DNA of 64,000 nucleotides from a virus. Below are positions 11,559 to 48,065 of the stretch, in pieces. Numbering within the stretch: the stretch's first letter is position 1; every line of letters starts with the position of its first letter. The DNA lies in the IMG/VR virus record IMGVR_UViG_3300034283_001919, positions 1 to 64,000 of that record; one strand, written 5' to 3'. Under the pieces are notes generated by a model that was not told where the DNA came from, did not search any database, and worked only from the letters and a program-made list of their open reading frames with translations. The position numbers were made by a program, and so were the translations under genes.

Positions 11559-12176
11559 TTACTTGTCTGTTGCATTCTGAACATAACAGTGGAATGGTGA
11601 TCCAGTATAAGGATCATACTTAGCTGCCACTGCAATGGCCTTGAGAGCGATTGCACGGGCTTGTGAGACGGTAGGGGACTTCTTACCCATAAGGATCTGT
11701 AGAGCGCCTAAGGCGTACGGAGAACCTGTTCCTAGGGCATAAAGGCCACTAGCATCAGATGTCCAAGAATAATCCCCTTCTACAACATAGATAGATCCAT
11801 TAAGGACTGTCAATATAGAAGAAGCATGTTCGTTAATGTGGTTTTTATCTTCATTGCTTTCAGGAGTAGCATAGCCCTGATTCTCAAAACAGTTTATTAA
11901 AGCAGGGACAAATTTAGATGTAATGAACTGATCTAGCTTTCTTCCTACTAAACCTGGAGTAGGCATGGGGGGTTGAAAAACGTGATGAAGAATATTGATT
12001 GCTCTCATGTCTCCGGCAGCACCGAGAAGGTATCTACCATTAGTTCCAACTTTATTAGTACTTTCTTTTAAAGTTGTTATCTGAGAAGCAAATCCACCAG
12101 AATCCATTGTTGATATTCTAGAGTCAGAACATATCAATGCGTAATTATCACCTTGTATACCTATAATAGTTGTCAT
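11559..12176 (-). CDS. Proteasome beta-subunit-like Ntn-hydrolase
   Basis: 205 aa. After Met removal the N terminus is T-T-I-I-G, as in processed proteasome beta subunits and HslV. Counting from that Thr as T1, D17 is conserved in CSDSR. A Lys follows in TTLKES (K36, close to the usual K33). LGTGSPYALGAL matches the GSG/Ser129 region, and KYDPYTGSP matches the Asp166/Ser169 region. So Thr nucleophile, Asp, Lys and Ser all appear present. There is no long propeptide, as in HslV and unlike host PrcB. Predicted role: ATP-dependent degradation together with an unfoldase; the AAA+ protein at 25711-27333 is the candidate partner, although not adjacent. Confidence 0.8.
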   Translation of the reverse strand: MTTIIGIQGDNYALICSDSRISTMDSGGFASQITTLKESTNKVGTNGRYLLGAAGDMRAINILHHVFQPPMPTPGLVGRKLDQFITSKFVPALINCFENQGYATPESNEDKNHINEHASSILTVLNGSIYVVEGDYSWTSDASGLYALGTGSPYALGALQILMGKKSPTVSQARAIALKAIAVAAKYDPYTGSPFHCYVQNATDK

Positions 12177-20744: not shown

Positions 20745-21815
20745 TTATTCTGATGCTCGAGAAACAAGAATATTTTTGAGTTTTTTCTTAGAAACAGGGA
20801 AAGAAGTATGGCTAATGCAATAATTCATAATATCCTTAAATGTCTTAGAGATAGTTTTAGGATTAGGAAGAGATGATCTGAAACTATCAGATTGGTAGTA
20901 TTCATCATGCTCTTCGTCTGAATCTATGGATATACTGTTATTCTCACACCATTGATCAAATAAATCATGGACATCTACAGTAGCAAGATCTTCTTGAAAA
21001 GTCATTGCAAAAGCTGGATTTGGCCAATTAAAAGAAGTAACTTCAGATAACGGTAATGATTCCCAATGTGTGTAAAGCTGGTTTATGACACTCATGCCAA
21101 GCTTATAACTAAGGTGAGAACTGTCAGTTATGCCACGAGATAACTGAATAGGATTCTTTTGAACATAAACAGAAGAAATAGTTTCTGAAAGATCTAAGTT
21201 AAAGTTACTAGCCCAAACCCAATCGTAAGCTGATTCCATGATTCCAGGAACATCAGCAGAATATCTTTCTATATCATCCATGGAATTAAAGAACGGGCGA
21301 CACAATAATCCGTTAACATAAAAGTTAGGGATAGGAGGAAGAAAAAGCTGTTGATCAAAATTAACTAAGCTTGATTTGGAAAAGAACATTTTAACTAAAC
21401 AAGTCCTATTATTATTAGGATCAAATTCTACAATATAAACTTGCCAAGGAATAGGTAGGTAGTAAGAGTATAATCTTGTATCATCATTTATGTCATGAAG
21501 ATACTGGTTATAAATATTAATTAGCTTATGAGTAGGAGGCTTCTCAAAAACTAAAAAGTTTTTATCAATATGGATAAGACCTGGTGGAATAATGGAATTA
21601 GAATTGTAATTGTAAGTATCTTTTGAATCTCGATAAAGAGAAATAAAGATATTATCTTTCATCCACTCATTGTAGTAGGTAAATTCAAATTCGTTTTGGT
21701 CTTCTATAACATGGCTTATGCCAGAGGAATCAAATGCGGTAAGAGAATGAACAATTCCTGCATTGGTTGTTTCGTAATTTGAAGAAGTACTTTTAAAGTT
21801 TGTTAAGTTATACAT
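20745..21815 (-). CDS. E2-like (ubiquitin-conjugating fold) protein A
   Basis: 356 aa. Residues about 87-175 follow the prokaryotic E2-B/PRTRC-B order: strand FLVFEKPP, strand PWQVYIVEF, strand TCLVKMFF, then a loop LPPIPNFYVNGLLC with Cys172 where the catalytic Cys would sit after a G-x-x-C turn. This Cys aligns by eye with C161 and C149 in the two following paralogues and C156 in 30208-32130. The C-terminal 150 residues are helical and acidic. Stop region overlaps nothing; the start overlaps protein B by 8 bp. Function inferred: ubiquitin-like transfer or an inactive E2 variant. Confidence 0.55.
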   Translation of the reverse strand: MYNLTNFKSTSSNYETTNAGIVHSLTAFDSSGISHVIEDQNEFEFTYYNEWMKDNIFISLYRDSKDTYNYNSNSIIPPGLIHIDKNFLVFEKPPTHKLINIYNQYLHDINDDTRLYSYYLPIPWQVYIVEFDPNNNRTCLVKMFFSKSSLVNFDQQLFLPPIPNFYVNGLLCRPFFNSMDDIERYSADVPGIMESAYDWVWASNFNLDLSETISSVYVQKNPIQLSRGITDSSHLSYKLGMSVINQLYTHWESLPLSEVTSFNWPNPAFAMTFQEDLATVDVHDLFDQWCENNSISIDSDEEHDEYYQSDSFRSSLPNPKTISKTFKDIMNYCISHTSFPVSKKKLKNILVSRASE

Positions 21816-22962
21816 TCACCTGCTCCTCAATTGTAGAAGGAGAAATAAGAGGAATTTGATAATTTAATTCAATAGACATTGAGTTTCTAGAATTATAGCT
21901 TTCGTAAACTTGATCCATAATATCGTAGGAGTTTTCTTTAAAGAACTGCAATATTTCAGAAGGGATATCACGGCTATTAAGATTAGTAGCGTTAAGACTG
22001 TTATCTAAAACAAGTTTTACAACACAATAATTGTTAGAATAATTATCTGTAAAATTTATTGGATCAACATAATGATCTACAGAACTATCTACGTCAGTAG
22101 CTGCAATAGAACTAATTGGTTTAACTTGATGAAAATGCTTTTGTTTTACTTCAGTAACCATGTTCAAAGTTTCTTCAAGAGATAAAAGAGAAAGATTATA
22201 AAAAGAGTTAGCTATCTCATAAGCAGGATGATGAGATTTAAAGAACTTCAACTTTAATTTTTTAGCTCTTGCATCGATTGAGGAATCAGAAAGATTAATG
22301 TAATCTTTGATCATGTAAGAAGAATCTATACTTCTCATTAAAGAATACAAATTAGAACCTAAGTCAGTATTCCATCCACCAGAAAAGTATTCATTAAACA
22401 TATAAGAATGTAAAGTAGCAAAGTCTGTAATCTGATTATTTTGTAATTTATCTTGGATACCTTGAGCAGAACGGCCTAAACAAATTTTGCCATCACCATA
22501 AACATTACAAAAATAGTTAGTAACTAAACGATCTTCTAATGAAGATATAGAAGAGTCGTTAAAATATATCTTGTAAGAGTTGATCATTGTGTTTACATCT
22601 GCAGATAAATTATAAACAGAAACAGTCCAGGGGACCCAGACTGTAACTGGTTTAATTGGACGGCGAACACGATTGCTCTTAGTAGGTGAGTAGTCAATCT
22701 TCATTTGGAAAGGAGGCCTTTCAACAAGGAATACTCCTTTATCCATATAACGAACAGCTATTGGATAAGGACCGCTAAGAGAATCTATTAACCGGTTCTT
22801 TGGAAACGAATTAATATTTTCTTGAACTTGATCTAAAGAAATAATTCCAAGATGAGATGAGAATCTGTAGTATTCAGAATTTTGTCTTTGAAAACGATCA
22901 GAAATCAAAGATAGATAATAAAGGTTATCATCATATTGTTTATAGATATTAAATGTAGACAT
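21808..22962 (-). CDS. E2-like protein B
   Basis: 384 aa. The same fold order as protein A: GVFLVERPPFQ (about 76-86), PWTVSVYNL (111-119), SYKIYFND (129-136) and NVYGDGKICLG with Cys161. The GDGKICLG turn is close to the NGRVCVG signature of PRTRC protein B. The long C-terminal region is helical. Together with A and C it makes three consecutive paralogues, probably arising by tandem duplication. Start overlaps protein C by 14 bp. Confidence 0.6.
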   Translation of the reverse strand: MSTFNIYKQYDDNLYYLSLISDRFQRQNSEYYRFSSHLGIISLDQVQENINSFPKNRLIDSLSGPYPIAVRYMDKGVFLVERPPFQMKIDYSPTKSNRVRRPIKPVTVWVPWTVSVYNLSADVNTMINSYKIYFNDSSISSLEDRLVTNYFCNVYGDGKICLGRSAQGIQDKLQNNQITDFATLHSYMFNEYFSGGWNTDLGSNLYSLMRSIDSSYMIKDYINLSDSSIDARAKKLKLKFFKSHHPAYEIANSFYNLSLLSLEETLNMVTEVKQKHFHQVKPISSIAATDVDSSVDHYVDPINFTDNYSNNYCVVKLVLDNSLNATNLNSRDIPSEILQFFKENSYDIMDQVYESYNSRNSMSIELNYQIPLISPSTIEEQVNV

Positions 22963-25063: not shown

Positions 25064-25690
25064 TCAGACCTCATACCAATCTGATTTATTAGCTACATGA
25101 GAAGCCATAGCCAGATCAACCATATAAGAAATAGAGTGGATATCTTGACGAGTTACTTTAATTGAATCAAAAGAAATAATATTCTTCATATCTGGAATGA
25201 AAGCTCCGGACTCAGCCATACGAGCTTCAAAGTGACCAGTCTTAAATACAAAGTTGTTAGAATCAAAGACATCTCCATTTTGCCAATAATGAGATTTAAA
25301 TATTCTACTTACTGGTTTGCCATTTATTTTAGCACCACCATAAGAAACAAATCCTTCAGCACTAGGTACACCAGTTCTTTCATTGGCTGGATAGCCAAGA
25401 GCTGCAGTGCCTGTAGTAATAGCCTTGAGATAGGCACCAAAGTCTACTACATCAACAAACACATTAGTGCTGCTCATAAGCTTGCCGTCTGAAGAAGTCT
25501 TACCAATATCAATACGAAGCTTTAGACCCTGAAACCAAGGACGGATTGAAAGAAATCCACTCTGAGTTTTAGAACGAAACCATTTCTTGTATAGATCTTT
25601 ATCATAAGTTTTTTGAACTTCACCAGTAGATGCATCAATTGCAGCTTCAGGGTTGTATGAATCATCGTGATAAGAAAATTCTTCAGACAT
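25064..25690 (-). CDS. Conserved-context hypothetical protein next to the AAA+ ATPase
   Basis: 208 aa, mixed beta/alpha, with FLSIRPWFQGLKLRIDIGK and VFVDVVDFGAYLKAI. No nucleotide-binding or protease motif. It lies 20 bp after the AAA+ gene and overlaps none of its neighbours, likely in the same transcript. Possible substrate-binding or structural subunit; not assigned. Confidence 0.5.
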   Translation of the reverse strand: MSEEFSYHDDSYNPEAAIDASTGEVQKTYDKDLYKKWFRSKTQSGFLSIRPWFQGLKLRIDIGKTSSDGKLMSSTNVFVDVVDFGAYLKAITTGTAALGYPANERTGVPSAEGFVSYGGAKINGKPVSRIFKSHYWQNGDVFDSNNFVFKTGHFEARMAESGAFIPDMKNIISFDSIKVTRQDIHSISYMVDLAMASHVANKSDWYEV

Positions 25691-25710: not shown

Positions 25711-27333
25711 TTACCATTTAAAGCCACTGGCTTTTGCAGGTGCATTTGTTGTTTTAGATTCACCGCTAACTATTAGTTTAGCATCATTAAATTGATCTGT
25801 CGAGGCCCAGTCCCATTGCTCTATAGCAGTGACGTAGAGATCTTGAATCATTTGACGACTCTTATTCCAAAGAATATTTCTCTGCTTCGGAGCATAAGCC
25901 AGAATATCACGGGTATTGATTGGACGAAGTTCGGCAGAAGAAACGTTAAACTTAACTTCTTTAATCAAAGACTTCATCTCTGCACCAGTAAAGTATTGAG
26001 TAGCATGAGCTAGCTCTTCAAGATCAAAAACGTGATCTGTTTTAATTCCTTGAAGATAAATATCAAGGATGGACATACGCTCATTAAAAGAAGGAAGACC
26101 AACAAACATGATCTTGTCAAAACGATCAGCTCGTAGCATTTCTGGTTTAAGATGATCAAGCTGATTGGCAGCACACATCAAGAAGACGTTATCAGGAAGC
26201 TCTTGTAAACCAGTAAGGAACTCACCATGAACACGGTCAGTAGTACCGCCGTCGACTTGTCCAGAGCTTTGACCACCAGACATGTCTCGACCAAACTCAT
26301 CAATCCAAACGCACAACGGAGCCATAACACTAATCTGTTTAAAGACAGTACGCATGTTTTGCTCTGATTGACCAATGTAAGAATTCATAACTTGGCTAAC
26401 ACCAGTACGAGCAAGATCAAGCCCTAGTGCATTAGCAGTTGCTTCACAAATAGCTGATTTACCAGTACCGGGAACGCCAACCATAAGAATACGACGGATA
26501 GGACTAATCCCAAACTCAGCAGCTTTTTCTGGATTATGCCAAAGAACAGCGTTGCGAGTAATAAGTTCTTTAATGTTATCAAGACCACCAATATTATCAA
26601 AGGTAGTCTTAGGACGAATGATTTCAAGAATGCCATTCTTTTTAATGTCGGCCATCTTAAAATTATAAATATAATCTGGATCAATCTTTCCATTTTCAAG
26701 AACAGAATTAAGACAAACATTAATGAAATCAGATTCTGTCAAACCAATTGCGGCTTTAGCAATTGCAGGAAGAGATCCCTGATCAACAAGAGTGTTACCA
26801 GAAGAATCATCTATGTGATTAATAATAGTTGCGAGTTCTTCAAGGTTTGGTTCTTCAAAATCAGAAAGATAAAACATGTTTTTAAAATCTTCTGGACAAT
26901 CAAACCAAGACATAAACACCAACTGAAGAGGCATTTGTTCAAGATCATCAGACCAAAAAGCAGAACGATATTGAGTGTTGTTCATGGAGATCAATCCAGA
27001 AAACATTTCCATCATTGCTTCTGGTTTAGTGTAAACAGAATATAAAAATGTAGCAGATTCTTTGTTAGTGTTTAACTGGTCAAGAAGATGAGTGTAAGCT
27101 ACAGTAAAATCAAAAGTTGTAGTCTCACGAAGTTCCTCTGGGTTTTGAGGATCAGGCATTTGGACTAGTATGCTCTTCCATTCATTGTCTATGAACTTAG
27201 CATAACCTTTAAGGGGATCTATAGTGTAGAAAGAGCGTTGATTAAACTTGATAAGAGACTCTGTGGTTCTAGCATAATCAGTAGTCTTAAGCCAAATAGA
27301 AGGAACTCCAAGTTTAATTTGGGAGAATAGCAT
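25711..27333 (-). CDS. AAA+ ATPase (Cdc48/proteasomal-ATPase-like unfoldase)
   Basis: 540 aa. The N-terminal 240 residues are unique. The AAA module begins TFDNIGGLDNIKELI (244-258), Walker A GVPGTGKS (286-293), pore-loop-like region MNSYIGQSE (316-324), Walker B CVWIDEFGRD (341-350), sensor-1 FLMCAANQ and the Arg-finger/SRH LRADRFD. Only one AAA ring, as in FtsH and Mpa/ARC, without the FtsH protease. Adjacent to Ubl, E1 and JAB genes, so I infer unfolding of Ubl-tagged proteins, perhaps for the phage Ntn-peptidase (11559-12176). A C-terminal HbYX-type tail is not evident (it ends ASGFKW). Confidence 0.75.
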   Translation of the reverse strand: MLFSQIKLGVPSIWLKTTDYARTTESLIKFNQRSFYTIDPLKGYAKFIDNEWKSILVQMPDPQNPEELRETTTFDFTVAYTHLLDQLNTNKESATFLYSVYTKPEAMMEMFSGLISMNNTQYRSAFWSDDLEQMPLQLVFMSWFDCPEDFKNMFYLSDFEEPNLEELATIINHIDDSSGNTLVDQGSLPAIAKAAIGLTESDFINVCLNSVLENGKIDPDYIYNFKMADIKKNGILEIIRPKTTFDNIGGLDNIKELITRNAVLWHNPEKAAEFGISPIRRILMVGVPGTGKSAICEATANALGLDLARTGVSQVMNSYIGQSEQNMRTVFKQISVMAPLCVWIDEFGRDMSGGQSSGQVDGGTTDRVHGEFLTGLQELPDNVFLMCAANQLDHLKPEMLRADRFDKIMFVGLPSFNERMSILDIYLQGIKTDHVFDLEELAHATQYFTGAEMKSLIKEVKFNVSSAELRPINTRDILAYAPKQRNILWNKSRQMIQDLYVTAIEQWDWASTDQFNDAKLIVSGESKTTNAPAKASGFKW

Positions 27334-27379
27334 TAGGATACCTTTAAAATAAGTGGGGGCCTTTGTAAAAAATGTAAGA

Positions 27380-27431
27380 GTGGGGGAAGCTGTACTACAT
27401 CAAGTAAGAAGTTTAGTACATCCTCCCCCAC
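27380..27431 (-). terminator. Long hairpin terminator/attenuator between Ubl and AAA+ genes
   Basis: Near-perfect arms gtgggggaagctgtacta and tagtacatcctcccccac enclose a 15-nt loop. On the minus strand it is followed by TCTTACATTTTTT. It lies after the Ubl stop and before the AAA+ start, so it probably raises Ubl transcript over ATPase transcript. Confidence 0.75.
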
Positions 27432-27449
27432 GATCTTTGCAAGGGTTAG

Positions 27450-27701
27450 TTAGCCCTTTTCGCCGGCACGGCGATGGAACTCAAGGTTGTCACTTGGCTG
27501 AACGACATAGTCTTCGTCAAGCTTATCCTTGCCCTTGTAAGCAATTGCGTCGTTGGGGATTCCCCACAACTTGCTGAATTGCTCGCGAACTTCTTTAACG
27601 CTTTTGCCAGCAACTGGTGTTGGCTGACTGTAAACGCCAAATCTGACGTTAGCTACGCCAGAAGAAGACGCAGCCGAAGCTGATGATGATTGATTATTCA
27701 T
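27450..27701 (-). CDS. Ubiquitin-like beta-grasp modifier (PRTRC-C-like Ubl)
   Basis: 83 aa. A Ser/Ala-rich disordered N terminus (1-17) is followed by a compact beta-grasp: VRFGVYSQ, VKEVREQFSKLWG helix, AIAYKGKDKLDEDYVV and a last strand LEFHRRAGEKG. It ends exactly at Gly83 with a basic RR-x-GEKG tail; PRTRC protein C Ubls end in similar R...GTKG tails, and E1-activated modifiers need a C-terminal Gly. No extra residues follow, so no processing is required. The E1-like gene is 17 bp upstream. Strongly suggests a conjugated modifier. Confidence 0.75.
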   Translation of the reverse strand: MNNQSSSASAASSSGVANVRFGVYSQPTPVAGKSVKEVREQFSKLWGIPNDAIAYKGKDKLDEDYVVQPSDNLEFHRRAGEKG

Positions 27702-27718
27702 AGTAATAGATTCTCCTA

Positions 27719-28483
27719 TTATACTGGTAGTGGTACTAATTGAACCATACGGTTATATGGTTCTGATTTACCGACGCCGAGATCAAAGTAAATCTCAGAC
27801 TCTTCGGGGTTTTGGTTGTTCACAATTGTTTTGTGAATACGACCAAGAATAAAAGCTGCAACTGCCATGTTAGTTGCAAGTAACTGGGTTCCACCATTTA
27901 CTTCTGCTCGTTCTTGACAAGACATCTCACCGGGGTTTTTATCTGGTGGACTCTCATACTCTGGATGAAAGGTTACTGGATGCTCAGTAACATCTTTAGC
28001 ATCTCTGCGTTGATAATGATAGATAGAACCAAAAAGGTCATCATCATTGCCACCAGTAAAGACGTCAACATTATCAAGTTTAGATGCCGCATCGAACAAG
28101 ATTTTGCGTGCAGCAAAGTTATCTACTACTGCAAGAACAATATCTCCTTCAGTGATTAGCTCAGAAGCTTTAATCTTTGGAGATTCTTCATCTGTTACTC
28201 CAGCAAAGTTATCATCAACAACCCATTTAGGGACTGGAATAAACATTGTGTTTGGAAATGAAGGAGTAAGTTCCAAAGCTTTAACTGAAGCCTTGTTGCC
28301 CATCTGTTTAAAGTTCTGACGTTCTAAATTCTTTTGTTCATAGTTATCACCGTCAACAAGAATCAATGCAGAGCCAGGAAATTTCCACTCTAGCATTCGA
28401 GCTACGCCTTCAGCAAGCCAAGTGCCAATGCCACCGGCACCAACAAGAACTACTCTTCTAGGAGAATTATCTGTATGTGTCAT
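27719..28483 (-). CDS. E1-like ThiF/MoeB-family adenylyltransferase (PRTRC ThiF-like)
   Basis: 254 aa. Rossmann ATP-binding GAGGIG (15-20), the Asp-x-Asp and N-L-x-R-Q motif in LVDGDNYEQKNLERQ (42-56), VVDN (119-122) and a conserved Cys189 in EMSCQER followed by a helix GGTQLLATNMAVAAF. These are the hallmark residues of E1/ThiF adenylation domains. The protein is short and has no UFD domain, as in PRTRC ThiF. Predicted to adenylate the C-terminal Gly of the adjacent Ubl. Overlaps the JAB gene by 17 bp. Confidence 0.85.
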   Translation of the reverse strand: MTHTDNSPRRVVLVGAGGIGTWLAEGVARMLEWKFPGSALILVDGDNYEQKNLERQNFKQMGNKASVKALELTPSFPNTMFIPVPKWVVDDNFAGVTDEESPKIKASELITEGDIVLAVVDNFAARKILFDAASKLDNVDVFTGGNDDDLFGSIYHYQRRDAKDVTEHPVTFHPEYESPPDKNPGEMSCQERAEVNGGTQLLATNMAVAAFILGRIHKTIVNNQNPEESEIYFDLGVGKSEPYNRMVQLVPLPV

Positions 28484-30167
28484 AAATACCGCTATCTATA
28501 TCGTTAGCAACCTTGGAAAAATCAACCCAAGAATCACAGCCATCTATTGCTTTGGATGGCAACTGTTGTGTAGAAATAAATTCAATAATGTTGTTTCTAT
28601 AAGAATCACATTCAGGAAGACAATAGAAAGCACATGTTTGACAAATTGAATCAGCAACATATTTTTCTGTATTGTTTGCTGCTATTTCAAATCTTTCAAT
28701 GTCTTCCCAGTAAACCGTAGGTGCACACTTGCATTCAGTCCATGCTCTGTCAGCAGGACACGCACAACATAATGTTACGTCTTCTGCATAAAAGAACAAG
28801 CCATCTGATTCTTTAAGAAGAGATAAGCCAGCTTGATCAGCATCACCATACTCTTCGAATTCATCTATTCTAGAACCGATTGAAATGTCACGACTATCTA
28901 ATTCATCTGGTTTAATTTGAATAAGAAAGTTTTCATTCTTATCGTCTTTACACCAAAGGTAATAGGCACATCCTGTTTCTTTAGAACGATTGACAAGATG
29001 ATAATTAACTGCAAATTCAATAGATTTAAGAGAAGCATTTTTAGGAGCTAATGGGATGTCACAAGCTGGACAAAAGCCATGTCCTTCAACGTCTGCTTTA
29101 AATAGATATAGTTCACAAGAAGGACAGGTCATTGAAACATTTGAAGAAGTGTCAATCTCGGCAACGAGTTGACCATCGTATTCATCCATTTGAAAAGGGA
29201 TTGTTTGCTTACGAGATGGAACAGAACGTCCACCGTAATAGTTAATCCCAGTAGTGCCCGTATGTCCCGACACTAGACCCTGAGCCTGACCAGTTGGCAG
29301 GGCTTGGGTAGCCTGTGGTGTAACCCCCGCTTTGTACGGCGGGGGGGATACTTTTTTTACTTTGCCGGACCATTCAACAACTTGAGGATCTGGATCTTTA
29401 ATTTCAGTAGTGTCTTCAAAGACATCTTCAATATTCAAAAGATAAGCAGTACCGTTCATTTGCATCTCTGCATGATACTCAGTAGCTCCACCGTTCTTGG
29501 TCTTCATCCAGCCGTAGGTGATGTGGACCCCATCGAAGTCTGCTTGGTCCTCATGATCGGTCCCAGAGGCGTATGCTGCCATCTCAGGATGACTGTGGAC
29601 TGAGCCAACAATGATTACATGGTCAGGTTTAAGATCAACAATGGACTCAGCGTCATACTTGCAGTGTGCTGGAGTATTAGTCTGTTCAGGAACCAAGACA
29701 CCCCAACCATCAGATGTGTTTACATTAGGATCAAAAGTTAAGATGACTATAGACTCGGTGCCGTGCTGAGCGTGCACTAATCTAAAGAACTCGTCTAACT
29801 TTTTAACAATAACTTTAGGAATCTTTGGCATGTTGTATGTTGCAGATTCTTCTACTGAAGAAAGAATGTCTTGTCCAAATTCATCATCTGTTTCTGAAAC
29901 AGAACGACCAATAATGTTATTAACAACTTTAAGAACTCGGGCTTTATGAGTAGTCTCAATCCACGTAATTTCTTTAAATTGTTTATCTTTGCCTTTAACT
30001 TCTTTATTAATTGCAAGATCAGCGATTAAGTAATAGATCTGAAAACCTAGAGACTCAACTACTTCACAGATGTCTTCACGGTCAGCCATAAAACATGGTG
30101 CTCCGTTAGTCATCCAGAAGTAGTCTAGATCATCTAGAGTAACTGGTTCTTTAATTTTATTAGACAT
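28467..30167 (-). CDS. JAB/JAMM (MPN+) metallopeptidase with zinc ribbon, deubiquitinase-like
   Basis: 566 aa. JAMM motif complete: Glu138 in GTESIVIL, H191-S-H193-P, then S201 and D204 in AYASGTDHED. N-terminal region about 110 residues of unknown fold. The C-terminal half has a zinc ribbon CPSC...CPAC (about 355-380) and a Cys-rich region (CCACPADRAWTECKC, CQTCAFYCLPEC) probably binding further zinc. Predicted to release or process the Ubl, as PRTRC protein A is thought to do. Longer than typical prokaryotic JAB proteins because of the fused zinc modules. Confidence 0.8.
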   Translation of the reverse strand: MSNKIKEPVTLDDLDYFWMTNGAPCFMADREDICEVVESLGFQIYYLIADLAINKEVKGKDKQFKEITWIETTHKARVLKVVNNIIGRSVSETDDEFGQDILSSVEESATYNMPKIPKVIVKKLDEFFRLVHAQHGTESIVILTFDPNVNTSDGWGVLVPEQTNTPAHCKYDAESIVDLKPDHVIIVGSVHSHPEMAAYASGTDHEDQADFDGVHITYGWMKTKNGGATEYHAEMQMNGTAYLLNIEDVFEDTTEIKDPDPQVVEWSGKVKKVSPPPYKAGVTPQATQALPTGQAQGLVSGHTGTTGINYYGGRSVPSRKQTIPFQMDEYDGQLVAEIDTSSNVSMTCPSCELYLFKADVEGHGFCPACDIPLAPKNASLKSIEFAVNYHLVNRSKETGCAYYLWCKDDKNENFLIQIKPDELDSRDISIGSRIDEFEEYGDADQAGLSLLKESDGLFFYAEDVTLCCACPADRAWTECKCAPTVYWEDIERFEIAANNTEKYVADSICQTCAFYCLPECDSYRNNIIEFISTQQLPSKAIDGCDSWVDFSKVANDIDSGIYDTYR

Positions 30168-30207
30168 AATTTCTCCAATAGTATATTTGTAGTTGTAGTT
30201 TTAAATT

Positions 30208-32130
30208 TTAAAAAGGTTCTGGACTGTAATCTGAACCGTCAGTATTGAACAATTCAAATGTAGTAGAATATTGTGGATGAAGGTCGTAGTAAACTGAACT
30301 CAAAGCTCTGTAATAATAATGAGTATGAGTAAACAAAGATTTAACAGGATCATCTAAATCATATTTAGAGTTTAAACATCCTTGACAAACTTCTTTTATT
30401 TTAAGAATTATTTCATCGCCTTTAGAATTAACAAAAGGAGTAGAGACAAAAGGCATTATCGAAATATTACTCTTGTCAGTCCAATGTCCAGAAGGACAAT
30501 AGTGTTGTTTCTTTGCACATTGTAAACAAAACTTTTGACTGGCTAAAGTAAACGTAGAAATATCAATTTCAATGTCTTCCCAAAAGTTAGCGTTATGATG
30601 AAACAAAGAAGGAACGCTTACATAAGTGTGAGCAAGCTCAGGAACATCCACAAATATACCAACATTACAACCAGAACATACAGCATGGTTCTTAGTGTAA
30701 ACAGGCTTTTTACTGTAAGGGTTTAATCCAGAAGGAAGAAGATCAGGAAGATGTTCAGCTGCTTGTTCGTTAAAACATGATGGACAACAATCAACTAAAT
30801 CAACGTCTTCTTTTTGCGATTGAAACTGATAGAACGGAAATGATTCAGTAGAATCTTTAGTGATCCAATAAGACATGTCGCAATGGTTACATTCTTTTAT
30901 AGTTGCTTTCTTGGCATCTACATAATAAGAATAAGCTTCCATGTAAACAGCATCATCATCTTCTGCATGAAGATAAGTATCTACGTTTTCACAATAAACC
31001 CAATTTTCTTGGAAGCAACTTTGACACCAGTTAGATCCTTTAGGATCAGCAAAGAACTCTTCATTATCTTCAGAATAAGATTCTTCACATCCTGGGCAAG
31101 TAAACGTGTTATCATTATCATCGTCTGGTGAATTGAATAGCGAAGGTTGTACAAAAGTTTCTGCAATCTTTACCTTGCTTAAAGCAGCAGCATTAAACTG
31201 ATCTAGCTTTTGAGGTTCAGTTTTAGCAGAGTTGTGAGCTTGTACAAAGACATTAAATACTTGGTCTGTAGGAATATCAATATCAGTACGAGCAAAAGCG
31301 TTGATAAGCTTAGGGTGATAGTTATCATTGTAGTAAGAATTATAGTTACCTAACAAAGCCATTGCAAATGTTAATGGTTGACCATCATCGTAGTGCTTGT
31401 CTTGGTTATCCATATCTTTAACAAGAATAGGAATCCACATATCTTCATCAAGAGTCCAGTCTAATCCTTCTTCTTGAGATTTTTCTTGCCAAGCAGATGG
31501 GTTCCAAAGGTATTCTGGTTTATTGTTTTCACGATAAAACCTAGGACCATCAGTCTCTGACATGTTAGCATCGTTGTATGCTTCAATGCCTGAACAACGT
31601 TGAATCAACTTATTAACTTTATCGTTAAAAGAAATGTTAGTCCAGTCTTCATTGTGATACAAGCATTGCCAACCTACACCATTACCACGATAACCCTTGC
31701 AGTTAGTGTTAGGAAGGTTGATATGATAAAGAGGCTGATCAGGATGGCTGATTGGATAAGGGCTATAGAACATTCTAGCACCGTATAGATTGCCGTCTAA
31801 AAGATCTGCTACCCAAATACGATAAGGCTGAGCAAGCAAATAGGCTTTAGCGTTTCGGTCTCCTTCGTTAGCACCCCAGTTAATGTAAGCCAATGCTGGA
31901 GCATGCTGGAAAGCTATCTGAGTATGCCGTCCTGCAGAACGGATAGAAAGAATTCCAGTTCCATTAAGGGGCAAAAGACCGGTGTCAAATAAAGCCTGGT
32001 TAGAAATCTGACGATAATAAGAAGTAATATCTTTATCTGTCACATGATCTAAGTTAAAAGATTTTACAGTAGAGCGAGCTACAATAGTTGACTCTGTTTG
32101 CTCAATAGAATAGGTTATATTTTTAGACAT
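30208..32130 (-). CDS. E2-like domain fused to multiple zinc ribbons
   Basis: 640 aa. Residues about 60-165 have the prokaryotic E2 layout: LSIRSAGR, QIAFQHAPAL, PYRIWVADL, YGARMFYSPYP, LYHINLPN, then GVGWQCLYHNEDW with Cys156 at the catalytic position and a following Trp as in E2 enzymes. Residues 346-560 hold at least five CxxC pairs (CPGC, CQSC, CNHC, CPSC, CSGC, CLQC, CQGC), a RING-like or treble-clef array that might recruit substrate. First gene of the cassette, 40 bp before JAB. Candidate combined E2/E3-like ligase. Confidence 0.6.
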   Translation of the reverse strand: MSKNITYSIEQTESTIVARSTVKSFNLDHVTDKDITSYYRQISNQALFDTGLLPLNGTGILSIRSAGRHTQIAFQHAPALAYINWGANEGDRNAKAYLLAQPYRIWVADLLDGNLYGARMFYSPYPISHPDQPLYHINLPNTNCKGYRGNGVGWQCLYHNEDWTNISFNDKVNKLIQRCSGIEAYNDANMSETDGPRFYRENNKPEYLWNPSAWQEKSQEEGLDWTLDEDMWIPILVKDMDNQDKHYDDGQPLTFAMALLGNYNSYYNDNYHPKLINAFARTDIDIPTDQVFNVFVQAHNSAKTEPQKLDQFNAAALSKVKIAETFVQPSLFNSPDDDNDNTFTCPGCEESYSEDNEEFFADPKGSNWCQSCFQENWVYCENVDTYLHAEDDDAVYMEAYSYYVDAKKATIKECNHCDMSYWITKDSTESFPFYQFQSQKEDVDLVDCCPSCFNEQAAEHLPDLLPSGLNPYSKKPVYTKNHAVCSGCNVGIFVDVPELAHTYVSVPSLFHHNANFWEDIEIDISTFTLASQKFCLQCAKKQHYCPSGHWTDKSNISIMPFVSTPFVNSKGDEIILKIKEVCQGCLNSKYDLDDPVKSLFTHTHYYYRALSSVYYDLHPQYSTTFELFNTDGSDYSPEPF

Positions 32131-32132
32131 AA

Positions 32133-32525
32133 TCAGCTTTCGTCTAGAATAGATTCAATGTGCTTGTCGATTTCTTCAGAGAAATCACCAAAGGTCCAAG
32201 CGAACCAATCAGGATCTTTATGTGCGGTATCAATTATATTTAACCGAGTTTTAATATGATCAGATCCTTCAATCAAATCAGCAACTCTATCTAGACCTTT
32301 AGCTAAACGCTTAAGTTCTTTTTTATCGTGGCTGGTTTGAAGAATAGCTTTTAGTATAGGCATCCCGTCAACAGTAACCTTATTAACAATAGAATTTATT
32401 CTCTCTTCTATTGTAGAAAGTTCAGACTCTAGATCTTCTTTAACTTTGTTGGAAAGATTAAGAGAAAAGGTAAACTTATCCAAAGGCTTTTGTTCCTTTG
32501 GAATTTGTTCAGGATATTCAGACAT
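32133..32525 (-). CDS. Acidic coiled-coil hypothetical protein
   Basis: 130 aa, mostly helical, acidic. Two bases upstream of the E2/zinc gene, so likely co-transcribed. It contains LNLSNKVKEDLESELSTIEERI. Possibly an adaptor. No family recognised. Confidence 0.5.
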   Translation of the reverse strand: MSEYPEQIPKEQKPLDKFTFSLNLSNKVKEDLESELSTIEERINSIVNKVTVDGMPILKAILQTSHDKKELKRLAKGLDRVADLIEGSDHIKTRLNIIDTAHKDPDWFAWTFGDFSEEIDKHIESILDES

Positions 32526-32752
32526 TAAAGCCCCTTAGATAATTGATAAGTTTTTAGCAGAGTTTTGAGTTCTAACGATGACCACCAAACAGTCACAAGA
32601 CCAACACTAATCTTAGTCATAAGACGAACAAGTTGAGTCTCATTAAAAGAAATCTTAGTAGTCATTCCTTGAACATCAAAATAAGATTCTTCAAAGAAAT
32701 TATTGATTTTGTTTTCTAACATATTAGCTTTGGCCTTGTTGCTTTGATTCAT
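32525..32752 (-). CDS. Small helical hypothetical protein
   Basis: 75 aa from ATG 32752 (AGGAAAACC before it); the longer version uses TTG. One-base overlap with the next gene (stop/ATG). Amphipathic helices, no motif. Confidence 0.5.
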   Translation of the reverse strand: MNQSNKAKANMLENKINNFFEESYFDVQGMTTKISFNETQLVRLMTKISVGLVTVWWSSLELKTLLKTYQLSKGL

Positions 32753-32791
32753 GGTTTTCCTGTTCAATGATGATTTATGTTTTGTTTTGGT

Positions 32792-33235
32792 TTAGGAAGA
32801 TAGCAAAGAAAGTTTTGATTGACGGTATTTATTACCGTCTGATCCGAAATAGTTAAAGAACAATTCCAGAAACAAAAGAACAAATAAAGAAGAAAAAGTA
32901 AACATATGATATATAAAGTTATTAAAAATAACGTTTAAAATAAACAATGCAGAAAACAGAACTCCGGCAATAGCAACGGAAGCTCTGTGCTTGGGTAAGA
33001 GATTTTTAACTCTGGTTATACCTATACCTATAAAAGGAAGAGGTATAAAGAAAGGATAAGATGCATCTGCTTTAGCTAGTTTAGCAATAAGATAATGACC
33101 TAGTTCATGAACCAGTAACATCATAGTAAAGACAAACACTAAAGGGTTATGGATCAATGTATAGTTGATTGCAGCGAGAGCACCAATAGTACAAAAGCTA
33201 ACTGTAAAAGATTTAAACTTTTTTCCTATAAACAT
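32792..33235 (-). CDS. Site-2-protease-like (M50) intramembrane metalloprotease
   Basis: 147 aa with about four hydrophobic segments. The zinc motif HELGH lies in a membrane helix (MMLLVHELGHYLIAK) and a second motif FGSDGNKY near the C terminus is in the place of the N-x-P-D-G Asp of S2P proteases. PDZ domain absent; minimal core. Membrane location predicted. May cleave a host or phage membrane regulator. Rare in phages. Confidence 0.7.
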   Translation of the reverse strand: MFIGKKFKSFTVSFCTIGALAAINYTLIHNPLVFVFTMMLLVHELGHYLIAKLAKADASYPFFIPLPFIGIGITRVKNLLPKHRASVAIAGVLFSALFILNVIFNNFIYHMFTFSSLFVLLFLELFFNYFGSDGNKYRQSKLSLLSS

Positions 33236-41312: not shown

Positions 41313-41704
41313 AATACATTAAACCTGTTAATAATTTCATTCATATACAAAGTAGATATGGAATGAAATCTTTCGTTGTCTTGTATTAAGATAGAGTTGT
41401 AACCCAATATTACAGCATTACCATATATAACTTCATTAATATAATAAGTATTAGTGTAGTCTCTATATATAGAAGTTGCTAGGATATTAGATTCTTTAAT
41501 TGATCTTTCATGGTCTTCATGAAAGATTAGACAATGGTTATTCTTTAATATTAATAAAGATAAGTTCTCTTCTGATAATCCAGCGTAATTAAAAACATCA
41601 TTCAATGAAGCTTTAATAACTTGTGGATAAGAATCAAAAGGTATTAGAATAGATTGAAAGAAATCATCATCAAAAGATTTATGAACATCTTTCAAGGTCT
41701 TCAT
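41309..41704 (-). CDS. Hypothetical protein
   Basis: 131 aa, alpha/beta, starting MKTLKDVHKSFDDDFF. Coupled to the subtilase (overlap 4 bp). No family recognised. Confidence 0.5.
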   Translation of the reverse strand: MKTLKDVHKSFDDDFFQSILIPFDSYPQVIKASLNDVFNYAGLSEENLSLLILKNNHCLIFHEDHERSIKESNILATSIYRDYTNTYYINEVIYGNAVILGYNSILIQDNERFHSISTLYMNEIINRFNVL

Positions 41705-43281
41705 CTATTGACGTCTTCCCACCAAGATTTTGGAGCAAGAAAGGATCCTACTGCACCTTGCAGGTAACACCTAATGATACCTGTAGCTTTAGCGTAGGTT
41801 CCATCTGTATTCTTTAATCTATAATAGTTTAAACGGCCAGTATAATCTACTGGAATAGTAAACGTTTGACCACTGTCGCAAGTCAATAGATAATGAGTTA
41901 AAACATCTTTGCCATAATAAACATCAAGATATGTAATCGTGAATACATCATGGAGGTAAGAGTTATAGACAGACGACATAGAGTCTAACGAAACAAGCAA
42001 TGGTTTTCCTACTGCATATCCAGTAACGGGAGGAAGGGTTGTAGTTACTGGGACAGTAGTAGTGGTCACCGGAACAGTAGTAGTAGTTGTTGTAGTAGGT
42101 AACGTTGTAGTTGTTGCATTTGGAATAGTAGTAGTAGTTACTACTGGAGGAACAACCGGTGTAGTAGTGGAATCAATCAAGGACTTCATATTAATTCGCT
42201 TAGTTATAATTCCAGTGAAATCATCAACAGCAGGCGAAGAAGTAGATTGAAAGTCAGTAATAACTTTATCTACAGATTGGACACCAAACTTGGAACGGTA
42301 CACGGCTAAAGCTCCGGCAACAAATGGAGTTGCCATTGAGGTACCAGAAGCTGAACCATAAGATCCCATCAACTTAGAAGAGTTAATGGCATAGCCAGGA
42401 GCCGACAGTGTAGTAAACTGAGATACGTTAGAAAATGTAGTTACTTTATCTGTAGAAGTATAAGTAGCAGCTACGCTAACGGCGGTAGAGATACAAGCAG
42501 GAGCTGACATACCAGCAGAATAATTGTTTCCAGAAGCAATAACTGTAGCAATATTCTTTGACTTTAAATTGTTAATAGCTTGAGTAACATCAGGAAGATA
42601 AGAATCGCAAGTAGATCTAAAAACAGTGTTACCACCAAGTGACATATTAACTGAAGTAATGTTGTAAGTATCAGCTAAAGAGTAGACATAGTTTAAAGCT
42701 TTAACCATATCATCATCATAGGCTGCACCATATACGTCAAAAATGTTGATAGCTATGATCTTTGCACCTGGGGCAATTCCATGAAACTGTGAGTTGCTAC
42801 CAGCAATGATACCAGCAACGTGTGTCCCGTGATAATGCACTGGGACAGCTGCTCCTGGTCCAATCATCTGATTGGTACCATTAGGGCAACGAGTAGCAAA
42901 GCAGGCTTCTAGAGCTATCTTATCGGCTAAGAAAGGATGTGCTTTTTCTACGCCGGTATCAATGACAACAACGTAAGATCCTTGCCCAGTATAACCAGAA
43001 TCATAAGAATAGTCTGCACCTATCTTAGGAATAGCTGTGGACAAAGAAAGTTTAAATTTAACTTTAGAGTTAGCAGTAGCAACTTTAGACTTAGTCTTTA
43101 CAACTTTCTTATAAGAATGAGACTTAACTCTTTTGTTAGTCTTTTTCTTAGGTTTAGAATTGGGTTTAGTTATTTCTGAACCGCCCTTGTTTTGGGCAGC
43201 TTGGGCTGGAATAGCATTAGTAAGTGTAAACGTAGTTAACATAACTAATGCTGTTATGTATTTAGTTAATTTATTGTTCAT
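41701..43281 (-). CDS. Secreted subtilisin-like serine protease (S8)
   Basis: 526 aa from ATG 43281 with GGAAAC upstream. N-terminal signal peptide (ITALVMLTTFTLTNAIPAQA) with an Ala-x-Ala cleavage site. Basic pro-like segment, then catalytic Asp in VVVIDTGVEKAHP, His in HYHGTHVAGIIAGS and Ser in SGTSMATPFVAGAL, all intact. A Thr/Val/Pro-rich linker (TTTTTVPVTTT) leads to a C-terminal beta domain of about 90 residues. Export from the host cell, or virion attachment, is likely. Unusual for a phage. Confidence 0.9.
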   Translation of the reverse strand: MNNKLTKYITALVMLTTFTLTNAIPAQAAQNKGGSEITKPNSKPKKKTNKRVKSHSYKKVVKTKSKVATANSKVKFKLSLSTAIPKIGADYSYDSGYTGQGSYVVVIDTGVEKAHPFLADKIALEACFATRCPNGTNQMIGPGAAVPVHYHGTHVAGIIAGSNSQFHGIAPGAKIIAINIFDVYGAAYDDDMVKALNYVYSLADTYNITSVNMSLGGNTVFRSTCDSYLPDVTQAINNLKSKNIATVIASGNNYSAGMSAPACISTAVSVAATYTSTDKVTTFSNVSQFTTLSAPGYAINSSKLMGSYGSASGTSMATPFVAGALAVYRSKFGVQSVDKVITDFQSTSSPAVDDFTGIITKRINMKSLIDSTTTPVVPPVVTTTTIPNATTTTLPTTTTTTTVPVTTTTVPVTTTLPPVTGYAVGKPLLVSLDSMSSVYNSYLHDVFTITYLDVYYGKDVLTHYLLTCDSGQTFTIPVDYTGRLNYYRLKNTDGTYAKATGIIRCYLQGAVGSFLAPKSWWEDVNR

Positions 43282-43307
43282 AGAATAGTTTCCGTAGGTG
43301 GTATTGA

Positions 43308-44987
43308 CTACCAACGTTTTTTAGATTCAATCTTATTTTGAAGCCATTTAGGCTTAGGATTGTTTTCGTAATACTTAGATATGATTTGAGAAGCCATACC
43401 TTTAGTCATGTCAGCAGTAAGGGGTATACCTAAACGCTTTAACATTTTCTTTTGAGGATCAGTAGGTCCATCAGTTCTCCATTGAGCAGAAGAATCGATT
43501 AGAACTAAAGATGCTGCACGATTCTCTTGAATCCATTTGTCAGTGCCGGAAAATACTGATCTAAGATTATCAGCTCTACCAATAATCTTAACTGAAGTTT
43601 TATCATTATCTTTATAATGAAGCTCAGTATTCCAACGACCCAAAGCATCTAATGTTATATGCATGGACTCATTATTATTAAGACCTAGGTGGTAAGAGTT
43701 TTCACCGATCTCTGCCCATACATACTTAGAGTATTCTAAGATAGCAGGGTTTGGTGGTGGTGGCATAAACAAGTTAATGCGTTTGTATGCACCTTGAATA
43801 TCATCTGGATTAAGTACACGAATAGCTTCACCAGGACAATAGTCTTCTAGCTCTTCATACTTCTTAGCGACGTCTGTTAGGCTCTGTCCTTGTAAATCGA
43901 ACTCTGGTGGCATTCCCAAAAGAGTAGGAAGGCCAATAGGCTTCTTCCCCCTCGTGGTGTCTGCAATATCGATAATCGTACAATGTTCTTTGCCTTCGAA
44001 TAGACGGGTACCTCGACCAACAATCTGAGTATACAGAAGTGTTGATCTGGTTGGTTTAGCTAAGATAATTGTTTCCAATGAGGGTTCATCAAAACCTTCG
44101 GTGAGAACACCTACATTGACAATTACTTTAAGTTTATTCGTAGAAAAATCCTGAAGGATCTTTTGACGTTCTTCGTGAGGAGTTGTCCCCACGATTACTT
44201 CGCATTCTACCGACGCTTGTCGAAAGGATAAGGCCAGGTTTTCGGCGTGTCGAACGCCGGATGCGAATACAATGGCTTTCGTAGCCATTGCCAAATTGCG
44301 ATAGGTAGCGACAACAAAAGCGTTGCGCTCAGGAGTATCCACTTTTTCTTCGAGTTGATCTTGAGCATATTCACCGTTTCTAATTTCGACATCTGATATG
44401 TCTACATTTGTTTTAACTCTATATCCGATGAGGGGACTAAGCCAGCCATCTTCAATGAGATCTTGTATTGATTTATAGTAAACTATCTCATCGAAAACAT
44501 CAATGAGTCTAACCGAATCCGACCTTTGCGGCGTTGCCGTAACTCCCAACAGAAAAGGAGGATTAAAGTAATCAACAATTCTTCTGTAAGAAGGAGCAGC
44601 AGCATGGTGGGCTTCGTCAATAACGATAGACTTAAAATAGTCATTAGGATATCCTTCAATACGGGGTGTGCCACTACGACCTAAGGTAGCTACAGAAGCT
44701 ACCACTACGTCTACATGGCCAGCTTTACGATCAGCTTGCTCTATCTCTACAGTAAGTGTAGGGTTAGATGCCATGATCTTATTGCGGGCCTGCTCTAATA
44801 GCTCTGCACGATGTGCAAGAACGAGCATAGGTAGAGTGTTCTTGCGAATAACTGGTAGATGAGAAAACAAAACTGTTTTACCGGCACCAGTAGGGAGTAC
44901 TACAAGTTGTTTACTAATTCCTTTTCCTTCATGGAATAGGATAGCATCAAGAGCTTCTTGCTGGTAGGGTCTAAGGGTAACGGTCAT
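43308..44987 (-). CDS. SF2 DEAD/DEAH-box helicase (RadD/UvsW-like)
   Basis: 559 aa. Q-tip FRPYQQEAL-like start (LRPYQQEALDAI), Walker A PTGAGKT, DEAH in IDEAHHAA, motif III VTATPQR, motif V/VI GVLTEGFDEPS and QIVGRGTR. The C-terminal 180 residues are extra and unlike a nuclease. Unwinding of recombination or replication intermediates is expected. Long compared with UvsW-type minimal helicases. Confidence 0.85.
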   Translation of the reverse strand: MTVTLRPYQQEALDAILFHEGKGISKQLVVLPTGAGKTVLFSHLPVIRKNTLPMLVLAHRAELLEQARNKIMASNPTLTVEIEQADRKAGHVDVVVASVATLGRSGTPRIEGYPNDYFKSIVIDEAHHAAAPSYRRIVDYFNPPFLLGVTATPQRSDSVRLIDVFDEIVYYKSIQDLIEDGWLSPLIGYRVKTNVDISDVEIRNGEYAQDQLEEKVDTPERNAFVVATYRNLAMATKAIVFASGVRHAENLALSFRQASVECEVIVGTTPHEERQKILQDFSTNKLKVIVNVGVLTEGFDEPSLETIILAKPTRSTLLYTQIVGRGTRLFEGKEHCTIIDIADTTRGKKPIGLPTLLGMPPEFDLQGQSLTDVAKKYEELEDYCPGEAIRVLNPDDIQGAYKRINLFMPPPPNPAILEYSKYVWAEIGENSYHLGLNNNESMHITLDALGRWNTELHYKDNDKTSVKIIGRADNLRSVFSGTDKWIQENRAASLVLIDSSAQWRTDGPTDPQKKMLKRLGIPLTADMTKGMASQIISKYYENNPKPKWLQNKIESKKRW

Positions 44988-47309: not shown

Positions 47310-48065
47310 TCAATAAGGATTATTAGGTGGGGCAATGTAACTAGAATTTTTGAATGAAGATGATGGCTCTTGTCCAATAACTTCTATGTATCGGATCTGA
47401 TGCCAGTGAGACAAGAAGATCTTAGTTGCATAGCGTCGAGCTTGAGCTTCTAGCCTGGAGTCTTCTGTGTCAGCACCTGAATCATCTCGTTGTTTGATTC
47501 TACGGTCAAGCTCTTTAGTATAGAGTTGACCGTAAAAGGAATCAGGAACAGTAGCAAAAGATTTGCCGATCTTCCAAGTAAGATTCTTTAAGAATGGGTT
47601 CCAAGATCCTGGTTGAGCAGTACTTGGATTAAGACCACAATAGCTCCATAAGTTATTAAAGTTAGGAGCTTTGTGAATATCTATCGTAGACAACAACGCA
47701 GCAGAGGCAGCTTGTCCGATACCAGGCTGTTGTAAAGCCCAGGTACCAGTCACAGTGGAGTGGTTATAGTCACTAAAGATGGGAGTAGTAGAATTCTCTA
47801 ATCCTCTTAGATAATGAGAATATGATTTAAAAACAGATGAGTTCTTAGAATCATTGAGATCTAGCAACGAGATCCGTGTGTCTTCTATGTCATAATAGAA
47901 AGATACAAGGTTTTCCATTTCTGTAGTATCAAAACCACGAGAAATAAAATTAAATTTGCGTGACATTATAGACACAACATCTACGCTCATAAGGGTGTCT
48001 GATTCAATATCTAATTGGGCTAGATCTTGATTGTGAACATGGTCATAGTTAATTTGATTATTCAT
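47310..48065 (-). CDS. Protein with IS110-transposase-C-terminal-like (HhH) domain
   Basis: 251 aa. QPGIGQAASAALLSTIDI followed by FNNLWSYCGLNPS and a C-terminal helix matches the Transposase_20 helix-hairpin-helix of IS110 elements, but the N-terminal DEDD domain is absent and there are no flanking repeats. Many phages carry this domain without transposition activity, so a DNA-binding role is more likely. Confidence 0.55.
   Translation of the reverse strand: MNNQINYDHVHNQDLAQLDIESDTLMSVDVVSIMSRKFNFISRGFDTTEMENLVSFYYDIEDTRISLLDLNDSKNSSVFKSYSHYLRGLENSTTPIFSDYNHSTVTGTWALQQPGIGQAASAALLSTIDIHKAPNFNNLWSYCGLNPSTAQPGSWNPFLKNLTWKIGKSFATVPDSFYGQLYTKELDRRIKQRDDSGADTEDSRLEAQARRYATKIFLSHWHQIRYIEVIGQEPSSSFKNSSYIAPPNNPY

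Follow-up and report, generated by a model that had tools for sequence, protein, structure and literature searches.

The window analysed here is a stretch of 64,000 nucleotides, positions 1 to 64,000 of the IMG/VR record IMGVR_UViG_3300034283_001919. It is part of a 104,067-base record of a large uncultured bacterial virus, with terminase large subunit matches in the record and tail-fibre-like genes in the window. On its minus strand lies a set of genes for a ubiquitin-like (Ubl) modifier, an E1-like enzyme, a JAMM peptidase and three E2-like proteins, which very probably encode a complete and reversible Ubl conjugation pathway of the PRTRC kind (Prok_Ub/E1/Prok-E2_D/JAB) with three E2-like carriers. 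An earlier reading of the same DNA, hereafter the original prediction, had placed four such genes side by side, and all four open reading frames (ORFs) were found on the minus strand at the coordinates that it gave. The genes E2b and E2c lie outside the span that it covered.

27450..27701, minus strand: Ubl modifier, 83 amino acids (aa), predicted ubiquitin fold, disordered N-terminal tail, C-terminus ...FHRRAGEKG (Gly83 codon 27453-27455)
27719..28483, minus strand: E1-like adenylating enzyme (E1), 254 aa, with GAGGIG, D44, N52, R55, K64, D121 and the catalytic-loop Cys189 (codon 27917-27919)
28467..30167, minus strand: JAMM/JAB metallopeptidase (JAB), 566 aa, with E138, H191, H193, S201 and D204 and a C-terminal zinc-ribbon and Cys-rich region
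30208..32130, minus strand: E2a, E2-like domain with CxxC zinc modules, 640 aa, with H136, N141, C144 and C156 (Cys156 codon 31663-31665)
21808..22962, minus strand: E2b, 384 aa, E2-like, with N-V-Y-G-D-G-K-I-C and Cys161 (codon 22480-22482)
20745..21815, minus strand: E2c, 356 aa, E2-like, with N-F-Y-V-N-G-L-L-C and Cys172 (codon 21300-21302)

Related viral loci, 46 in number, were gathered with the E2a alignment as query. E2a, JAB, E1 and Ubl are all present and collinear in 42 of them, and the remaining four run off contig ends. Lineage membership is defined by the cassette itself, and the sequences are metagenomic. When window genes outside the cassette were used as lineage markers, almost no relatives were retrieved, and two records were without both the E1 gene and the neighbouring AAA ATPase gene. 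The ratio of non-synonymous to synonymous substitution rates (dN/dS), estimated from four genome pairs, is 0.01–0.08 for both Ubl and E1, indicating strong purifying selection. This, together with the syntenic conservation in dozens of viral contigs, argues that the four adjacent ORFs are not chance frames. The values are 0.12–0.24 for JAB, 0.10–0.28 for E2a and 0.14–0.45 for E2b and E2c. Such faster-evolving E2s beside a constrained core would be expected if the E2s meet varied partners.

The modifier, the E1-like enzyme and the peptidase

Scans of the single Ubl, E2a, E2b and E2c sequences against Pfam, NCBIfam and PHROG gave no match, and profile-profile comparison with plasmid PRTRC sets was therefore used for family assignment. 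The plasmid PRTRC cassette corresponds to the NCBIfam families TIGR03735/36/37/38 and the Pfam families PF14454 (Prok_Ub), PF14460 (Prok-E2_D) and PF14464 (Prok-JAB).

The AlphaFold2 model of the modifier, computed with 30 phage homologues as input, has a core with a predicted local distance difference test score (pLDDT) of about 90 and the order beta-beta-alpha-beta-beta-beta. Foldseek comparison with the PDB returned ubiquitin variants, NEDD8, SUMO and FAT10, all at a probability of 1.00 and a template-modelling score of about 0.6–0.7, and the beta-grasp fold proposed for this protein is thus confidently predicted. R77, R78, G80, E81, K82 and G83 are invariant in 30 sequences, and the end F-H-R-R-x-G-E-K-G is almost fully so. 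Four of the 30 genes carry two extra codons after GEKG; trimming would therefore be needed there.

The E1 bears GAGGIG and, as N-L-E-R-Q, the predicted N-L-x-R-Q motif. It matches PF00899 at 3.6e-13. Its best NCBIfam family is PRTRC_ThiF at 3e-7, with 30.0 bits, which lies below the TIGR03736 cut-off of 144.75 bits, and hhalign against ten plasmid PRTRC ThiF proteins gave 98.7–98.8%. No variation was seen among 32 homologues in the GAGGIG core residues, D44, N52, R55, K64, D121 or Cys189, and Cys189 aligns with the cysteine of the PRTRC 'PSC'. Additionally, a motif SC...Q..N is common to PRTRC and phage E1s and is not found in MoeB, ThiF and TcdA of E. coli. Among solved structures, the E1 profile comes nearest to 9egb/9egc, bacterial proteins of the THIF type, and to UBA5, the E1 of UFM1. 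In a tree of 39 rows, the phage E1s form one clade with PRTRC and other phage ThiF proteins beside it, while the three E. coli enzymes stand apart; because of long branches, the position of phages D69 and ME3 is only approximate. Grouping with unrelated biosynthesis enzymes, which would have spoken against the conjugation reading, was thus not observed for E1, and JAB matches PRTRC_A.

The metal site of JAB is complete, with the expected HSHP...S..D motif present as HSHP...SGTD. JAB scores above the cut-off for Prok-JAB PF14464. Its match to PRTRC_A (3.6e-4, 20.2 bits; hhalign 90%) lies below the TIGR03735 cut-off of 101.8 bits. Across 36 sequences E138, H191, H193, S201 and D204 do not vary, and the same holds for several Cys pairs in the zinc region. 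In the most divergent loci (L077, L080, L082 and L124) the C-terminal part of JAB matches a separate ORF.

Three E2-like proteins

The original prediction had listed one E2-like gene, the 640-aa protein E2a, which is indeed E2-like by profile. E2b and E2c, which are closer to PRTRC_B, had been overlooked. These two are paralogues (hhalign 98.9%) and, with a broadened reference set, are related to Prok-E2_D/PRTRC_B at 92.3% (E2b) and 96.0% (E2c), as compared with 0.0–0.1% for column-shuffled controls and at most 3.5% for other unrelated pairs. In a blind hmmsearch of 1091 ORFs, E2c and E2b orthologues came out on top, the window's own proteins scoring 1.3e-7 (E2c) and 5.1e-5 (E2b). C161 of E2b is invariant in 29 sequences and C172 of E2c in 26, and both are aligned with the PRTRC_B cysteine. 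The assignment of PRTRC_B itself as an E2 is based on Pfam PF14460 and Iyer et al. 2006 (PMC1779556).

In E2a, H136, N141, C144 and C156 are invariant in 39 sequences. Its profile matches the joint E2b and E2c profile (hhalign 92.9%, E 3.8e-7) with Cys156 aligned to their cysteines, although this and the other hhalign E-values are pairwise and not calibrated against a database. The AlphaFold model of residues 1–330 reached a pLDDT of 85. In a viral structure library E2a matches members of its own family, phage proteins of 241 aa and 438 aa and, weakly, a 294-aa protein of Acinetobacter phage ME3, equal in length to the product of the ME3 gene that adjoins the one annotated as PRTRC protein A. 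The prediction of an E2-like domain fused to zinc ribbons therefore stands as regards profile kinship, the invariant Cys156 and the CxxC pairs, and falls short as regards the predicted fold, which has no PDB match. E2a is likely to be an E2, a third and more divergent paralogue recognised by profile similarity and not by fold.

The presence of three E2-like proteins also bears on a sulfur carrier role of the ThiS/MoaD/CysO-like kind, in which E1 and Ubl would yield a thiocarboxylate and JAB would trim Ubl as in CysO-Mec. An operon core of just Ubl, E1 and JAB is known from the CysO/QbsE type as well (PMC1779556). Against this role, three E2-like proteins are encoded, the E1 stands apart from MoeB/ThiF/TcdA, and the modifier ends in EKG, not GG. 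Rhodanese (PF00581) and cysteine desulfurase (PF00266) were found in none of 10 records in which positive controls were detected. Because the E2s are present and these two enzymes absent, sulfur transfer is disfavoured and appears very improbable.

Operon structure and neighbouring genes

The gene order p130-E2a-JAB-E1-Ubl, followed by AAA-p208-p136-...-E2b-E2c-MerR-like-SSB (single-stranded DNA-binding protein), is kept in the viral loci. The following features adjoin the cassette genes.

27367..27437, minus strand: strong intrinsic terminator, GC-rich hairpin with T-run between the Ubl and AAA genes, recognised by alignment and folding
32133..32525, minus strand: p130, helical protein of 130 aa, encoded immediately upstream of E2a; shares the operon wherever a locus extends that far
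32525..32767, minus strand: p80, small protein with which the operon probably begins, with a one-base overlap with p130 and synteny in many, not all, loci
25711..27333, minus strand: classical AAA ATPase, 540 aa (PF00004, 3.4e-24), syntenic, probably a separate transcription unit
25064..25690, minus strand: p208, highly conserved neighbour

In the loci measured, the intergenic gaps from p130 to Ubl are about -59 to +54 bases, whereas 85–140 bases separate Ubl from AAA. The synteny of p130 extends to the most divergent loci and L124, with a p130-E2a gap of about -8 to +21 bases. The terminator hairpin folds at -32.4 kcal/mol (z -3.0), and seven other phages have a predicted hairpin there too (z -2.1 to -7.1). 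From the tight gaps and the terminator it follows that the genes from p130 to Ubl probably form one operon that closes with Ubl, and that AAA opens another. The original prediction was right about the four adjacent genes and had missed this conserved boundary.

The AAA ATPase is of the Cdc48/PAN/FtsH type and always adjoins the Ubl gene or lies a few genes away. A degradation tag was therefore weighed, in which the ATPase would unfold Ubl-tagged proteins and a peptidase encoded 15 kb away would degrade them as a proteasome-like system.

11559-12176, minus strand: HslV/proteasome-beta-like peptidase (PF00227, 1.5e-7; phrog_1040, 1.6e-25), present in 14 of 20 related records

This arrangement is improbable. 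A hidden Markov model (HMM) of phrog_1040 does not find the peptidase in five of the 10 cassette-keeping records, which weakens the idea of a linked HslV/proteasome outlet, and HslV-like peptidases are an established phage family (phrog_1040). Moreover, AAA lies behind the terminator, and it has homologues in isolated phages in which no relative of the cassette, including E1 and E2a, was detected. AAA and p208 were also considered as a phage-wide module. This was rejected, as p208 has no relative in isolated phages and is not similar to the gene that follows AAA in Rhizobium phage L338C.

Some further observations concern the surroundings of the cassette. In a divergent branch (L077, L080 and L082), about 2 kb of extra genes, including one for a conserved protein of ~180 aa, lie between Ubl and AAA. 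A small membrane protein at window positions 32792-33235 (minus strand), with a HELGHY motif resembling M50 site-2 proteases, adjoins the cassette in many relatives. The record IMGVR_UViG_3300042868_009074 (267,766 bases) holds two different cassette copies (L001 and L005) and two HslV-like genes, one of them identical to that of the window. Probably two related phages were joined in assembly, and the double cassette is not a duplication.

Relation to known conjugation systems

Complete E1-E2-Ubl-JAB pathways in bacteria were predicted in 2006, and the type 6d operon of that work is PRTRC-like (Iyer et al. 2006, PMC1779556). The cassette shares with plasmid PRTRC the four kinds of protein, the E1 loop SC..Q..N, the JAMM motif, a Ubl end of the form G-x-K-G and an E2 motif N-x(n)-G-x-x-C. 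Furthermore, the order E2a-JAB-E1 of the window and its relatives equals the plasmid order B-A-ThiF (L020, L028-L030 and L033). Unlike PRTRC, it has three E2-like genes instead of one, zinc modules on E2a and JAB, and a Ubl gene placed after the E1 gene. ParB and PRTRC_F had no match in the window or in seven related loci, and the same set gave one marginal match to PRTRC_E (0.014), outside the cassette. Since ParB, E and F are missing, scores stay below the NCBIfam cut-offs and W..N.D stands where the E2s would have their downstream His, the cassette is best called PRTRC-type and not a PRTRC system.

Direct comparison of E2a with Prok-E2_D gave an hhalign value of only 13.9%. Several results weigh against a complete conjugation pathway of the PRTRC kind. 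Foldseek search of the PDB with the E2a model (residues 1–330) returned no UBC match and only meaningless ones. Type 6d E2s are characterised by a conserved Cys, no classical upstream His and an absolutely conserved downstream His (PMC1779556). E2a keeps the Cys but has the invariant upstream H136, and E2b and E2c keep it but show W..N.D in the place of the downstream His. The direct profile comparison of Ubl with PRTRC_C was the best among the Ubl pairs tried, yet not significant. The original prediction had equated the genes with PRTRC A, B, C and ThiF in a phage setting with added zinc modules. The setting, the zinc fusions and the pairs JAB-A and E1-ThiF hold, whereas the closest counterparts of B are E2b and E2c and not E2a, the link between Ubl and C is weak by direct profile comparison, and the system is not PRTRC proper.

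Type II CBASS also uses E1, E2 and JAB chemistry for prokaryotic protein conjugation, with Cap2 and Cap3. However, Cap2 is an E1-E2 fusion that acts on a CD-NTase without a separate Ubl, whereas the window has a stand-alone E1 of 254 aa and separate E2 and Ubl genes. PADLOC found E1 weakly similar to CBASS E1-E2 proteins in the nucleotide-binding part only. This similarity is one reason to consider counter-defence, by which the machinery would tag host defence proteins and inactivate them, or JAB would strip host tags of the Bil or CBASS type. Bacterial defence does use Ubl conjugation, as with Cap2 on CD-NTases (PMC10097602) and with reversible conjugation (PMC11153139), and Bil, according to Hor et al. 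2024 as cited in PMC12660748, blocks the assembly of phages. On the other side, the cassette occurs in 10 of 10 HMM-examined records (themselves retrieved by means of the cassette), in a constant position and under strong purifying selection, whereas anti-defence genes are typically patchy. PADLOC gave no Bil or Cap3 match, and three E2s with a dedicated Ubl imply conjugation and not removal alone. Counter-defence is therefore judged unlikely, although it is the main rival to control of phage replication or expression.

Among mobile elements, lambda TAPI/TAPK offers a phage Ubl with a C-terminal Gly beside a JAB domain (PMC1779556). It serves in tail assembly and has no E1 or E2, unlike the cassette of the window. 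A role in virion or tail maturation, with Ubl placed on structural proteins or JAB processing virion proteins as suggested for TAPI/TAPK, could draw on the JAB and Ubl domains of lambdoid tail assembly genes (PMC1779556) and on the tail-fibre-like genes within the window. It seems slightly less probable still than the degradation tag, as the cassette lies on the opposite strand, 16 kb from the tail-fibre-like genes and among SSB, uracil-DNA glycosylase (UDG) and helicase genes, and as tail modules lack counterparts of its E1 and E2s. Borg deSAMPylases are likewise JAMM deubiquitinase-like enzymes on a virus-like element, but they strip a host-encoded modifier, and no self-contained conjugation pathway was described there (PMC12660748).

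Related sets in other phages and in bacteria

Comparable genes occur in phages of other lineages. Bacillus phage vB_BauM_KLEB27-3 encodes a four-fold poly-Ubl (gp199), a Prok-E2_D protein (gp196), a JAB protein (gp195) and a ThiF protein (gp194). Its gp199 (L026:2730-3437) consists of four near-identical head-to-tail ubiquitin-like repeats, each with a GVKG end, a polyubiquitin-like phage gene that matches Prok_Ub PF14454 at 5e-27 with four domains. Vibrio phage D69 has gp307 with three repeats ending in TGTKG, together with Prok-E2_D (gp304), JAB (gp303) and ThiF (gp301). Acinetobacter phage ME3 has genes for ThiF and PRTRC_A besides a weak candidate for Ubl, and a gut phage scaffold carries ThiF, JAB and Prok-E2_D. 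ThiF and JAB are thus present in KLEB27-3, D69 and ME3 as in the window, and Prok-E2_D in the first two. These phages belong to other lineages and E1 clades, KLEB27-3 and D69 have tandem poly-Ubl where the window phage has a single Ubl, and no relative of the zinc-fused E2a was detected by sequence in any of the three. The phage Ubl profile matches KLEB27-3 gp199 at 9e-9, a score inflated by the repeats. The weak direct link between Ubl and PRTRC_C is thus complemented by the fold, the C-terminal motif, the gene neighbourhood and this KLEB27-3 intermediate.

The sets of KLEB27-3, D69 and ME3 have been annotated gene by gene only. In the literature searched, no account of a conjugation system encoded by a phage was found, and a 2021 survey of jumbo phages mentions no such system (PMC7824862). 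When the ThiF proteins of KLEB27-3, D69 and the gut phage served as queries for additional cassettes, few or no relatives were retrieved. The window E1, compared with 84,980 species genomes of bacteria and archaea, had a single relative there, on a 10-kb contig of a metagenome-assembled genome assigned to Ectothiorhodospiraceae (L124, PXAT01000157.1). With p130, E2a, JAB, E1 and Ubl all present, this contig is probably phage DNA binned with a bacterium.

Proposed pathway and possible targets

From the folds or families, catalytic residues, conservation and operon structure described above, we infer the following course of reactions. With ATP, E1 would adenylate the C-terminus of Ubl (Gly83), which would then be carried on Cys189 of E1. 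Ubl would pass to the active-site Cys of E2a (Cys156), E2b (Cys161) or E2c (Cys172), and these carriers would attach it to lysine residues of the targets. Through its zinc modules, E2a may select the substrate in an E3-like manner. The JAMM peptidase, with Zn on E138, H191, H193 and D204, would remove the tag, and could also trim Ubl precursors that have residues past the Gly or consist of tandem Ubl units.

No target of PRTRC or type 6d systems was found in the literature searched. As a tentative proposal, the single most likely use of the pathway is to regulate proteins that take part in replicating or expressing the phage genome. The reasons are that the whole lineage has these genes, that SSB, UDG and MerR-like genes adjoin them, and that plasmid relatives lie beside ParB, SSB and sliding clamp genes (ParB adjoins in several, and a sliding clamp with SSB in Xanthomonas). 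This is an argument from gene neighbourhood only. Somewhat less probable even than counter-defence is a host-independent Ubl code of the phage's own, in which the three E2s would address different phage or host targets, the zinc modules would act as selector and the AAA ATPase would serve as reader.

Other genes of the window and the record

Outside the cassette, the minus strand of the window encodes a cytochrome P450 (39049-40281; PF00067, 9.4e-25) and, among phage genes, an IS110-type transposase domain protein (47310-48065; PF02371, 7e-6; phrog_4285). Two further minus-strand genes hint at an actinobacterial host, namely a subtilase with a Thr-Val-Pro-rich tail (41701-43314) and a double transglycosylase (48406-49281) with an Rpf-type domain (PF06737), a family which we take to be such a hint. 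Matches to the terminase large subunit fall on two neighbouring pieces that differ in reading frame and contain a TGA (G000:C1:78853-80014), owing to a frameshift, an intron or an assembly error.

Implications

Pathways of this kind have so far been described from bacterial chromosomes and plasmids. The window presents a PRTRC-type pathway in a new setting, a phage, and with a new architecture of three E2s and zinc fusions. A universal and strongly constrained operon in one phage lineage, together with poly-Ubl relatives in cultured phages, indicates that viruses of bacteria have their own systems for protein conjugation. The cultured phage KLEB27-3 offers a testable model of modifier, E1, E2 and peptidase. 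The finding would be relevant to how ubiquitin signalling arose and to the conflict between phages and their hosts, where Ubl conjugation is known mainly from the bacterial side.

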